Shown here one piece after another: positions 14,349-23,459 of a stretch of DNA of 64,000 nt; within the stretch, counting starts at the first letter, position 1; each line of letters begins with the position of its first letter. Source of the DNA: Methanofollis aquaemaris (lineage in GTDB: Archaea; Halobacteriota; Methanomicrobia; Methanomicrobiales; Methanofollaceae); NCBI RefSeq assembly GCF_017357525.1, contig NZ_CP036172.1:62001-126000 (forward strand), given 5' to 3'. A program made the position numbers and the translations under genes. The notes below the pieces were generated by a model. The model saw nothing but the letters and a program-made list of their open reading frames with translations. It had not been told where the DNA came from and made no database searches.

Positions 14349-14630
14349 GGTGCTGTCTTCGCGTTTGGCCGAGGGGGATATAGATGTTCTGAATTCGATC
14401 TGTGGGATTATTGACGATCTTTCGTGATAATTCGCGCGGGACGGGGGGGGATGGGGGGGTGCAACTCCCGGCCCGCCGCCGCACGGGGGCGGTGGCGGTG
14501 AACGGGACGGCGGGTCCGGTGAGCGCGCGATTTTTCCTATTCCCGCGGTTCGGCCGACCGTTTGCCGCCCGGCGTCGGGCTTCACCTGCGTGAAGAGAGC
14601 GCCGGGCCATGACGCCGCGGAGGTTTTTCT

Positions 14631-14964
14631 TTCAGCAGACCCCCCGGTTTTTCAGCACTTTTCAGCACATATCAGCAGGTGCTGTCATTCAACGGGCGGC
14701 GGGATGCACCCTGATCAGGATTTTTTCCATCGTCCGCCGGATCACGGGATCGTTATCAACATTTCGGGTTTCGCGCACACGCCCCCACCCGGACACCGGG
14801 GAACCGGTGATGCCGTGCGGGTGGGCGATCTGCTGTACTTTACTCTGGAGAGAGAGATCTATCTCTCTCTCTGTATTCGTACCGTGAAATCCAACGCCTT
14901 TCCTGGCTCTTTGATCTGTTCAGCAACTGCTGAAGATCTGCTGAAAATCTGCTGAAATGCTGAA
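14631..14964. repeat. Segment bounded by phased TTCAGCA arrays in inverted orientation
   Basis: The left array has TTCAGCA at 14631, 14651 and 14661 and ATCAGCA at 14671 (steps of 20, 10, 10 bp). The right array has TGCTGAA at 14928, 14939, 14950 and 14958, plus one opposed TTCAGCA at 14919. Between them is a perfect 11-bp-arm palindrome (14848-14871). Helically phased repeats suggest cooperative protein binding, as at iterons or the ends of Tn7/Mu-type elements. Confidence 0.75.
14848..14871. repeat. GA/CT palindrome
   Basis: Arms gagagagagat and atctctctctc are perfect complements around ct. The 11-bp stem could form a hairpin or cruciform. It lies inside the TTCAGCA-bounded segment. Confidence 0.65.
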
Positions 14965-15099
14965 CACGTCATCGACTCCAGGACCGGGATCATCGCACTG
15001 CACCCATGGAAGGATGCCCCTCCGGGGTTATAAGATCGAGCGACGCGGGGCGAATGTGAAGTCGTGCCCCGGAATAAAACCGAAACCTGGCTCTGTTGA

Positions 15100-15790
15100 A
15101 TCGGACCCCCGCGATGGCGATGGGGCGGGGGACGGCGGGGGACGGCAGACCGGGGAGAGTACGATCATACATTCTCCCGACCGTTTGCCGTCCCGCTCCC
15201 AATCTTCATGCTGAGGGGTTCAGGGGCCGAAGGCCCCTTGAAGCCCGTAGAAGGCGCGAGACTTCGGTACAACATTCTGGATCACTCTCTCTCGCCGGGG
15301 GCTTTGCGCACCCGCCCCCCCGCGATGGCGATGGACGGGGGACGGCAGAGCGGCAGACCGGGGAGAGTACGATCCTACCATTCTCTCGGCCGTTTCCCGT
15401 CCCCCTCCCTATCTTCATGACGAGGGGTTCAGGGGCCGAAGGCCCCCTGAAGCCCGTCGAAGGCGCGAGACTTCGATACAACATTCTTGTTCACCCTCCC
15501 TCGCTGGGGGCTTTGCGCACCCGCCCCCCCGCCGATTGCGATAGGCGGGGGACGACGGAGCGGCAGACCTGGTGAGCGAGGTCATACTATTTTCTCCCGA
15601 CCGTTTCCCGTCCCCCTCCCCATCTTCATGCTGAGGGGTTCAGGGGCCGAAGGCCCCTTGAAGCCCGTAGAAGGCGCGAGACTTCGGTACAACATTCTGG
15701 ATCACTCTCTCTGCCGTTCCCCTCCCCATCTTCATGCTGAGGGGTTCAGGGGCCGAAGGCCCCCTGAAGCCCGTCGAAGGCGAGCGGCCG
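15100..15790. repeat. Tandem array of ~209-bp G+C-rich units (3 full-size plus 1 truncated)
   Basis: The landmark hairpin ttcaggggccgaaggcccc starts at 15219, 15428, 15639 and 15745, giving periods of 209, 211 and 106 bp. Each unit reads: ccgcgatggcgatgg-like start, cggcagaccggggagagtac, ttctcccgaccgtttcccgt, ccccatcttcatgctgaggg, the hairpin, then aaggcgcgagacttcgg and gggggctttgcgcacccg. The last unit lacks its first half. No conserved reading frame runs through all units. Confidence 0.85.
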
Positions 15791-19966: not shown

Positions 19967-20515
19967 ATGCGCGAACTCGGACGCCAGACCGTCCACCTCC
20001 TCTTCGGCATCGGCATCGCCTCAATCCTCCTCATCCCCGTGCCCGGACTTGCGCCGAAAATCTACGCCGCCCTCCTCATCGCCGGACTCATCATCAGCGA
20101 AGCGCTCCTCCGCGGACAATACGTCCCCCCCTTCACCGAGATCGTCGGAGCCTTCGAACGCAAAGAGACCTTCCCCGGCAAAGGCGCGGCGTACTTCGTG
20201 GCCGGCGCCCTCTTCTCCTCCATCTTCTTCACCCCCGACACCGCCTTCGTCGCCGTCCTCTCCCTCGCCGTCCTCGACTCCGCCGCCACCGTCGTCGGGA
20301 TCACCTGCGGCCGCCACACCCTCATCAACGGCCGAACCCTCGAAGGCTCGGCCGGAGGCTTCCTGACACTCGCCGCCGTCCTCCTCTTCATCCTCCCGCC
20401 GCTCCCCGCCCTCGTCGCCGCGGCCGCCGCCATGCTCGCCGAACTCCTCTCGCCGGTCGACGACAACCTCGTCATCCCCCCCGTCGTCGGGACCGTCCTC
20501 ACTCTCCTGCCCTGA
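19967..20515 (+). CDS. Polyprenol/dolichol kinase-like membrane protein
   Basis: 182 residues with about six membrane helices. The motif ERKETFPGKGAAYFVAGALF and the later LAVLDSAATVVGITCGRH ... LEGSAGGFLTLA match the SEC59/VTE5-type CTP-dependent polyprenol, dolichol or phytol kinases. In archaea such a kinase would phosphorylate dolichol or geranylgeraniol for glycan carriers or lipid salvage. The last 17 bp overlap the convergent sensor kinase gene. Confidence 0.82.
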   Translation: MRELGRQTVHLLFGIGIASILLIPVPGLAPKIYAALLIAGLIISEALLRGQYVPPFTEIVGAFERKETFPGKGAAYFVAGALFSSIFFTPDTAFVAVLSLAVLDSAATVVGITCGRHTLINGRTLEGSAGGFLTLAAVLLFILPPLPALVAAAAAMLAELLSPVDDNLVIPPVVGTVLTLLP

Positions 20516-23459
20516 TCCTGAACTCCCTCTCGGGCACCCCGATCTCGAACCGCGCCCCCTCCGCCTCGCGCCCGGTCTCGACGATCGTCATACCCGTGAT
20601 ATCCAGGATCTCCCTCACCAGAAAGAGCCCGTACCCCGTATTTTTCCCGAAACCCGCCTCGAAAATATGAGGCTTGTGCTCGACCGGCACCCCTATCCCG
20701 TCGTCCTCGATGATCAGCACCCCCCCCTCGCCGTTCTCCCTGAACGAGACCCTGACCTCCGAAACCCTGTTCCCGTGCCGCACCGAGTTTTCGAGCAGAT
20801 TAAAGATCGCCTTCTGGAACATCGGATCGGCATAGACCTCCAGCGGCCCGACGGCGACCGTGAGCGCGACCCCATTCAGGGCCAGGTCGTCCGCCGCCCC
20901 CCGCACCACCGTTTCCAGATCCTGCCACTCCGGAGCCTTCACCCCCATATGCTCGTAATCCCTCGTAAACGAGATCTGCCGTTTGATCTTCTCGGTCTGT
21001 TCCATACACGACTCGACGCGGCCGACGAGCGCCCGGTCGGCCAGGGCCGACTTTCTGATGAGATACAGATACCCCTGGAGCGCCACGATCTGGTTGACGA
21101 TATCGTGCCTGGTGATCCCGTTGAGGATATTCAGTTTCTTATTCGCCTTCTTCAGTTCCTCCTCATACCTGCGGACCTCGGTGATGTCCTGGTGAACCCC
21201 GGTTATCCTGAGCGGCATACCCCCGTCGCTCCTCTGCACCACCTTCCCCTGACTCCGGATCCATGCCCAGTGCTCGTCTTTTCGTCTCATCCTGAACTCT
21301 ACATGATAATACGGACTATCCCCTTCGAGATGCGTCTGCATGGCCTCATGTACCCGCGGATAATCCTCAGGGTGGATGAGACGCGACCACAGGAGGTCGC
21401 TCCTCTCCAGTTCGTCAGGATCATATCCGAGCATCTCCTCATAGATCCGGTTGAAGAGCAGTTCGCCGGTGGAAGGGTTCCAGTCCCACATACCCAGGTC
21501 GGCCCCCTTGATGACCAGGTTCATCATCTCCTCCTTCTCCTTCAGCGCCCGCACCGCCTCGTTGCGCTGGCTGACATCCCGGGATATCGCGGAGAACCCC
21601 ATAATGGATCCGTCTTCATCTCTGATCGGTGAGACCGTAATGGAGGCCTCGATCTCCGTCCCGTCCTTTCTCACCCGCACACTCTCATAATGACCGGTCG
21701 TCTCCCCTTTCTCGATCCGTCCGACAATCTCCTTGAACTCGCCCTTCCTCTTCCCATGAGCGAAAATTGATACATGGCGACCGATTGCTTCTTCCGGAGT
21801 ATAGCCAAAGATCGTCGTTGCCGCAGAGTTCCAGCTCGTGACGACACCCTCCAGATCGGTCCCGAAGATCGCGTCCTCCGACGACTCGACGATGGCCGCG
21901 AGCCTGAAACGATCGGCCTCGGCCTCTTTTTCCGCGGTCACGTCGCGGAAGACGAGCACCACCCCGATGATCCCGCCGTCCCGGTCCCGGATCGGTGCGG
22001 CACTATCCGCGATCAACCGTTCGCTCCCGTCCCTCGCGATGAGTGCGGTGTGGTTTGCCAGACCCACCACCCGCCCGGTCTCGATCACCCGTCTGACCGG
22101 GTTCTCCGTCGGTCGGCGACTCCTCTCATTGATGATGATAAAGACCTCGTCCAGGGGCCGCCCGAAGGCCTCCTCTTCCAACCACCCGGTCAGTTCCTCG
22201 GCCACCGTGTTGAGCATCACCACCCGCCCCTCCGCATCGGTCACGACCACCCCGTCGCCGATCGAACGGAGCGTGACATTCAGACGCTCCTCGCTCTCCC
22301 TGAGCGCCAAATCGGCCTGCTTCTGTCTGGTGACATCGCGCATGATGCTCTGGATGCCGTAGATCTCCCCGTCTTTGTCATAAACCGGGCCGCCGTTCAT
22401 CTCGATATCGATACAACCCCCGTCCTTTTGCATCACCTGGACCAGAAGCCCCTCGAAACACTCTCCTTTGACCGTCCTCCTGAAATGTTCCTGGATCCTC
22501 TCGATATCCGGGCCCCTCACAAATTCGGTATATGACCGTCCGAGCATCTCCTCAGGACGGTGACCGGAGAGCCTTTCCATCGACGGGGATGCGAAGATGA
22601 TCGTCCCGTCCGTTCCGCCCACCGTGACGCCGTCGTAGATCCCCTCGGCGATGATCTGGTACCTGAACTCCGCCTCCCTGAGAGCCTCCTGTGCCTTTTT
22701 TCTCTCGGAGATATCGACCGCAATCCCCTGGAGAGCGAAGAACTGATCGTCTCCGTCCCAGAGCGGCGTGAAGGTGAGAAGGGCCGGGAACGCCGCCCCC
22801 ATCTCTCCCCTCCTCAGTACCCTCACCTCACGGTTGATCACCGGTTTGCCGGTCCTGACCATCTCGACCCCCCAATCCCATGCCGCCTTCCGGTCGTCAG
22901 GGTGGAGGTAGAGGTTCCAGTTCTGACCGACCACCTCCGCGTCGGTCACCCCCAGCGCATCGAGGCCGCACCTGTTGAGATAGATGATCTTTCCCTCCCG
23001 GTCTGCCTTGAAGAGAATATTCGGGAGATTCTCCACCAGGTCGCGGTAATTTTTCTCAGACTCCCTGAACGCCCGCTCGGTCCTCCTCCTGTTCACCGCC
23101 TGCCTGACCTTGTGAGTCAGTTCGGTGAACTGGGCCACCGCGTCCCCGCCCTTCTGGAGATAAAAATCCGCGCCGCTGTTCAGCGCCTCGATCACCACCT
23201 CCTCCCGCCCCTTTCCGGTAAAGAGAATGAACGGCATCCCAGGACAGAACTCTCTGACCGCCTTGAGAAAGGCGATCCCGTTGGTCTGCGGCATCTCGTA
23301 GTCGGAGACGACGACATCGTACCTGAAGGACCTGAGAAGGTCCATCGCCTCCCCGGCCGACCCGGCCACATCGACACATATCTCTCCCTGATCCTCAAGG
23401 AATACCCTGCCCACCTGTAAAATTGCGGGCTCGTCGTCCACCAGCAGCAGTTGAATCAT
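20499..23459 (-). CDS. Large sensor histidine kinase: receiver plus multiple PAS domains
   Basis: 986 residues, cytoplasmic. Order: receiver domain (1-120; phospho-acceptor D53 in VVVSDYEMPQTNG), about five PAS/PAC units (150-760; each closing with ..DIS/DVT/DIT-type ends), then a H-box GITRHDIVNQIVAL with H785 and a HATPase_c domain (NLLENSVRHG; IIEDDGIGVP; GYGLFLVREIL). The N-terminal receiver with a C-terminal kinase is common in methanogens. No membrane segment, so it should sense an internal signal, for example redox state through PAS cofactors. No separate response regulator gene is adjacent. Confidence 0.93.
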   Translation of the reverse strand: MIQLLLVDDEPAILQVGRVFLEDQGEICVDVAGSAGEAMDLLRSFRYDVVVSDYEMPQTNGIAFLKAVREFCPGMPFILFTGKGREEVVIEALNSGADFYLQKGGDAVAQFTELTHKVRQAVNRRRTERAFRESEKNYRDLVENLPNILFKADREGKIIYLNRCGLDALGVTDAEVVGQNWNLYLHPDDRKAAWDWGVEMVRTGKPVINREVRVLRRGEMGAAFPALLTFTPLWDGDDQFFALQGIAVDISERKKAQEALREAEFRYQIIAEGIYDGVTVGGTDGTIIFASPSMERLSGHRPEEMLGRSYTEFVRGPDIERIQEHFRRTVKGECFEGLLVQVMQKDGGCIDIEMNGGPVYDKDGEIYGIQSIMRDVTRQKQADLALRESEERLNVTLRSIGDGVVVTDAEGRVVMLNTVAEELTGWLEEEAFGRPLDEVFIIINERSRRPTENPVRRVIETGRVVGLANHTALIARDGSERLIADSAAPIRDRDGGIIGVVLVFRDVTAEKEAEADRFRLAAIVESSEDAIFGTDLEGVVTSWNSAATTIFGYTPEEAIGRHVSIFAHGKRKGEFKEIVGRIEKGETTGHYESVRVRKDGTEIEASITVSPIRDEDGSIMGFSAISRDVSQRNEAVRALKEKEEMMNLVIKGADLGMWDWNPSTGELLFNRIYEEMLGYDPDELERSDLLWSRLIHPEDYPRVHEAMQTHLEGDSPYYHVEFRMRRKDEHWAWIRSQGKVVQRSDGGMPLRITGVHQDITEVRRYEEELKKANKKLNILNGITRHDIVNQIVALQGYLYLIRKSALADRALVGRVESCMEQTEKIKRQISFTRDYEHMGVKAPEWQDLETVVRGAADDLALNGVALTVAVGPLEVYADPMFQKAIFNLLENSVRHGNRVSEVRVSFRENGEGGVLIIEDDGIGVPVEHKPHIFEAGFGKNTGYGLFLVREILDITGMTIVETGREAEGARFEIGVPEREFRIRAGE

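Follow-up and report, generated by a model that had tools for sequence, protein, structure and literature searches.

Inverted iteron arrays in Methanofollis aquaemaris as a putative replication origin embedded in the Rep gene of integrative elements

Heptamer arrays of the window and their repeat family

The window, meaning the whole stretch of DNA analysed here, comprises 64,000 nucleotides (C1:62001-126000 of G000, a genome of 2.75 Mb). It carries a putative origin cassette bounded by two arrays of short repeats (iterons) in opposite orientation, together with a decayed remnant of the primase-helicase (Rep) gene in which intact copies of the cassette lie. The features are as follows.

14630..14965, minus strand (that of the Rep reading in intact copies): putative orphan origin cassette, 336 bp, matching positions 1-336 of the 339 of the cassette profile
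14631..14677, plus strand: left iteron array, exact TTCAGCA at 14631, 14651 and 14661, ATCAGCA at 14671
14928..14964, minus strand: right iteron array, exact TGCTGAA at 14928, 14939, 14950 and 14958
14919..14925, plus strand: exact TTCAGCA in the opposite sense, bordering the right array on its inner side, a weaker site
14848..14871, no strand: central GA/TC palindrome GGAGAGAGAGATCTATCTCTCTCTC, with GTAC half-sites on its flanks
14780..14827, no strand: GC-rich inverted repeat (CACCCGG...GGGTGGG), paired in the single-strand fold, local GC 0.73-0.80
14565..14629, minus strand: decayed Rep C-terminal coding remnant, reading WPGALFTQVKPDAGR against LPGVLDRREFTRVTTDLGR of Rep (similarity by eye)
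14966..15073, plus strand: right flank common to two other T-type orphans (1742155, 1357707)

An earlier, sequence-only reading had counted nine TTCAGCA/TGCTGAA heptamers. Eight of these are exact, and the copy at 14671 has one mismatch, so that the tally becomes eight exact copies and one near copy. The spacings given in that reading (20, 10 and 10 on the left; 11, 11 and 8 on the right) were correct, and the central palindrome was confirmed. The heptamer at 14919 is ranked as a weaker site because the same place reads GACAGCA or CGCGGCA in related copies. These 334 bp contain 8 of the 12 exact heptamers in the 64-kb window, for the whole of which 4.5 are expected, and 60 windows simulated with a first-order Markov model reached at most 2 per 334 bp. 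A genome scan for the triple-array pattern gave 10 matches, compared to 0 with a reversed-pattern control. Triple arrays are confined to copies of the cassette, and thus the heptamer is not a general genome word, the outcome that the earlier reading had named as its own refutation.

The GC content of the cassette is 0.53, with 0.40 in the lowest 30-bp window and 0.62 in the flanks; a GC scan of cassette and flanks displayed no clear AT-rich unwinding element beside the arrays. The pairs of the GA/TC palindrome are conserved in the alignment, while its centre is ATCTAT or ACGCGT depending on the copy. Directly after the cassette, in a non-coding stretch of about 2 kb, a 154-bp unit occurs in three direct copies 209-211 bp apart, followed by a fourth partial copy (15170-15782). 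Between 16000 and 24000 the GC skew of the window, positive at first, becomes strongly negative; part of this change coincides with a long minus-strand gene (20499-23459).

The search for further segments with the same arrays, proposed in the earlier reading, was successful. Positions 14600-15000 used as a BLAST query against the genome revealed 12 cassette copies of about 340 bp each, 68-86% identical, with sharp alignment ends at the outermost heptamers. The cassette profile is the family built from these 12 copies; about 27 further copies were found in relatives. Of the genomes of the same genus, 10/11 carry 2-8 copies, and a pattern scan of named genomes gave matches in Methanofollis, Methanoculleus and one Methanoregulaceae contig. 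In alignment A1 (39 copies), the right-array cores are nearly invariant, with variation at base 2 of the heptamer (TTCAGCA, TGCAGCA, TCCAGCA, TACAGCA). The promoter or operator of one gene was considered and rejected, as the orphans have no common neighbour gene; regulatory operator activity may be an additional role of the arrays.

The Rep gene around intact cassettes

The intact cassette is an in-frame part of a gene for a primase-helicase of about 930 aa (917-943 aa in four examples translated), located about 2.3 kb inside the gene, between the winged-helix domain and the C-terminal zinc finger. In many copies the coding sequence continues through the cassette on the opposite strand, the cassette being preceded by '...GLSYHQTYRILHGY..GLLEKCP..' and followed by 'LPGVLDHREF...GRCSVCDEGRAVFRS...LCERCYGRLV'. 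All 12 of the 12 cassettes within Rep genes are exactly 337 bp long with the Rep frame open throughout, so that the iterons lie in frame in the coding sequence of the initiator, as in a lambda-type embedded origin. Two apparent stops scored in gene copies belong to another frame, the genes themselves being open. Among cassettes outside a gene the length varies between 321 and 346 bp; of the 22 scored, 17 contain 1-5 stops. From sequence comparison, the position within the Rep gene is well supported.

The own genome has one intact Rep with this cassette (C1:1165948-1168779) and one pseudogene (2505212). No Pfam or NCBIfam model reached the cut-off with Rep and no PDB sequence matched it; the domains were assigned by motif. 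The motifs comprise a P-loop, Cys clusters and AEP-like motifs, namely WLP[VI]D[IL]DP in 10/14 rows and SGNGAHLLY in 14/14. In tblastn, the N-terminal part resembles a phage protein with a DNA polymerase annotation, and the middle is similar to putative Reps of small methanogen plasmids and to that of plasmid pME2001.

Two small conserved genes are found upstream of Rep. Several loci also have a tyrosine recombinase there (PF00589, E 1e-23 to 4e-27 in three loci). The recombinase adjoins tRNA-Ser and tRNA-Glu in L083 and L087, the combination of recombinase and tRNA target that marks an integrative element. Neither a flanking att duplication nor tRNA att repeats were seen in the stretches examined, which may stop short of the far end of the element. 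Additionally, in G009 and the own genome, T-type Rep genes have an Orc1/Cdc6-like gene and two small conserved genes within about 2-5 kb (Orc1/Cdc6-like regions: L061 13626-14822, L082 12044-13243, L083 3371-4525); the one in the own genome is among only three Orc1/Cdc6 genes there.

Of 150 genomes from the order Methanomicrobiales, 86 encode relatives of Rep P0001, and about 80 Rep genes of the order have cassettes at the same protein position with different repeat words. Apart from the heptamer of the window, the inverted words at this site include TTGCAGCA, TGGCAGCA, TGACAGCA, GGTTGCAA (12-bp period), TTGCACC, TTTCACC, TTTGCA and others. In one Rep subgroup, which includes 1436866 of the own genome, a stop codon stands at the cassette start and the iterons persist just downstream as non-coding DNA, indicating that the function resides in the DNA. 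Several variants were also observed. The Rep of L115 (G019:C17; about 1250 aa) has a cassette with an internal unit of about 153 bp in tandem, implying that origin arrays can duplicate within the gene. The Methanoculleus Reps L110, L111 and L114-L117 have an additional zinc-finger segment (NPADYIPLPV..PCHVCG..LCYDC) between the cassette and the C-terminal finger. A HicA-like gene and an origin cassette lie together in a block of about 880 bp, for which two species show 89% identity (L066 7432-8313, L088 9553-10434), with unmatched immediate flanks.

Comparisons to known systems display both likeness and difference. The lambda origin in gene O likewise has its iterons inside the gene of the initiator by which they are bound (PMC6022878, PMC4488673), such binding being predicted for Rep; among lambdoid phages, iteron-initiator specificity differs and ectopic copies can titrate the initiator (PMC6022878, PMC4488673). 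However, lambda O contains neither primase nor helicase and its 19-bp iterons adjoin an AT-rich element, whereas the cassette has 7-8 bp sites in two inverted arrays and belongs to an unrelated, archaeal protein. The rep-ori of SaPI and SCCmec also combines an initiator helicase, iterons beside its own gene and an integrative element (PMC7581432), and the C-terminal domain of that helicase recognises short iterons (PMC7581432). There the origin lies downstream of the gene, while the Rep cassette is usually coding and in frame, with the exception of the stop-codon subgroup with its downstream iterons. ORF904 of Sulfolobus pRN1 resembles Rep in its fused primase-polymerase, helicase and winged helix, and likewise has an origin at its 3' end (PMC4234260, PMC3869888), but that origin is a stem-loop of about 100 nt without iterons, conserved in structure and not in sequence (PMC4234260, PMC3869888). 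A protein of pME2001-size Methanothermobacter plasmids and a putative archaeal plasmid Rep match the helicase part of Rep (25% identity, E 1e-5 to 3e-5); in pME2001-type plasmids the primase part is unmatched, and no relatives of the cassette were found in plasmid DNA.

Covariation of the winged helix and the iterons

Residue 3 of the winged-helix motif 'SYxQT' is linked to the variable base of the iteron. His or Tyr occurs with G in 29/32 cases and Gln with T or A in 13/13 (Fisher 8e-9); in family f5, Leu occurs with T, Met with A and Ser with G. Since this residue had first been noticed by eye, 334 Rep columns (278 of the C-half and 56 of the zinc-finger region) were scanned on the same sequences as the first observation, and residue 3 was the best predictor of the variable base (z 11.9 compared to 7.2 for the next column). 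Its neighbours at +1 and +3 also rank within the top six columns. The base label is scattered over the Rep tree, changing 15 times compared to a mean of 16.8 after shuffling, and therefore common ancestry does not explain the link. Independent pairs on well-supported branches agreed in direction in 4/4 cases in most pairings and never showed the opposite (strict sign test with 4 pairs, p 0.125). Exceptions are L149, a clear case of Gln with G, and L101, L142 and L112. It can be seen that iteron sequence covaries with the Rep winged helix, and the predicted recognition by Rep is well supported by this strong sequence covariation. Under such a recognition code, the preference between TTTCAGCA and TTGCAGCA arrays would be set by residue 3, differing between the Gln-type Rep 1165948 and a His-type Rep.

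Orphan copies and the candidate origin

Ten cassettes of the own genome belong to neither the intact gene nor the pseudogene, and all ten are full cassettes. T-type orphans lie at 76.6 kb (the window copy), 927 kb, 1.358 Mb and 1.742 Mb. No piece of the first 560 or so codons of Rep was found in the own genome outside the intact gene and the paralogue 1436866 (E 0.001). The window copy is such an orphan: the surrounding Rep gene is decayed, with 4 stops in the Rep frame and a short remnant on the left, and the iterons are retained. Several orphans retain Rep remnants on the left. Three T-type orphans (the window copy, 1742155 and 1357707) have 90-150 bp of right flank in common, about 100 bp of it in the window copy, indicating that the copied unit is larger than the cassette. 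At one orthologous intergenic place a lone cassette is present in the own genome, G005 and G001, and G009 has an intact gene there within a stretch of about 12 kb.

The iterons of the window orphan match the intact Rep at C1:1165948-1168779 of the same genome, and its iteron cores show 0/38 changes from the T-type consensus, with 37/213 in the centre. Despite the lost frame, the T-type orphans together have 2/153 core changes compared to 145/1094 elsewhere in the cassette (p 7e-7). In G/C-type orphans, for which the matching Rep here is a pseudogene, the counts are 21/234 (9.0%) and 304/1712 (17.8%; p 5e-4), a weaker core protection than in the T-type (group difference p 0.03). Part of the contrast between cores and the rest may be older than orphaning. 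Identity of cassette over flank was also considered as a sign of selection: at one orthologous locus it is 86-96% compared to 33-60%, but at two others the flanks are equally conserved, and at the first the G005 copy is nearer to another own copy. This sign was dropped as unreliable, and the selection argument rests on the contrasts within the cassette.

The ten full cassettes, the missing front part of Rep and the protected cores, less protected where the Rep is a pseudogene, raise the tentative idea that orphan origins are kept by selection, either as decoys that bind live Rep and restrain resident or incoming elements from replicating, or as mini-elements with only an origin, for which replication would be provided in trans. 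Orphans may otherwise be relics. Ectopic lambda origins in E. coli arrest phage growth, a precedent for the decoy role (PMC4488673).

Taken with their place in the gene, the arrays quite probably serve integrative mobile elements of Methanomicrobiales as a replication origin of the iteron type, one that is embedded in the Rep gene and bound by its own Rep. Of the three options in the earlier reading, the evidence favours the iteron-type replication site, apparently that of a mobile element and not of the host chromosome. We infer origin use from the kind of enzyme and by comparison to lambda, SaPI and pRN1 (PMC6022878, PMC7581432, PMC4234260). The inverted arrays, unlike the direct iterons of most plasmids, count against an origin. 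An unlikely alternative is that Rep binds the cassette as a control site for self-regulation, partition or pairing (handcuffing) of elements, with replication starting elsewhere; the residue-base link indicates recognition and not initiation, and the cassette displays no clear AT-rich unwinding element. However, placement in or just after the initiator gene is that of the known origins of lambda (PMC6022878), SaPI (PMC7581432) and pRN1 (PMC4234260), and an operator would be expected at a promoter, not about 2.3 kb inside a gene.

Dispersed copies, inverted terminal arrays and the right flank common to three orphans would suit ends of a Tn7/Mu-like or MITE-like element with heptamers bound by a transposase. 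This proposal, also from the earlier reading, has become very improbable: the flanks show no target-site duplication and no recognised transposase gene (flanking genes were scanned against profiles in part), own copies differ as much as stated above, intact copies occupy one fixed in-frame place in one gene family, and Rep remnants lie to the left of several orphans. A structured non-coding RNA with paralogous copies is even harder to credit. Folds of individual copies do beat shuffles by far (z -8.1 on the plus and -6.2 on the minus strand of the window copy; -8.4 for copy 2505670), but the inverted repeats account for such stability on both strands. The 39 copies together give a consensus fold of only -13.3 kcal/mol with a covariation of -0.29, in which pairing at the variable base of the heptamer is frequently lost; Rfam gave no match and intact copies are coding. 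A conserved RNA was rejected on the weak consensus fold. A host chromosomal origin or skew-switch element, for which the GC-skew sign change near 16-18 kb of the window might speak, is extremely improbable, since this change coincides with a maximum and not a minimum of the cumulative skew in the window, the twelve copies are dispersed, and the three Orc1/Cdc6 genes lie at 1.17, 1.67 and 2.28 Mb, compared to 76.6 kb for the cassette.

In the favoured reading as an element origin, Rep would bind both inverted arrays via its winged helix, and two bound complexes would face each other across about 240 bp. The duplex would open centrally, near the GA/TC palindrome, where Rep would unwind and prime.

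No description of a Rep-embedded cassette was found in the open-licence literature searched. These findings point to a putative replication origin written in the coding sequence of an archaeal primase-helicase, whose iteron type has changed many times within one order. This natural series of changes leads to a testable code between residue 3 of the winged-helix motif and one iteron base. Moreover, such an origin would account for one class of repeats scattered between the genes of methanogens, and selected decoys, if they exist, would represent a defence or incompatibility mechanism made of DNA sites alone.
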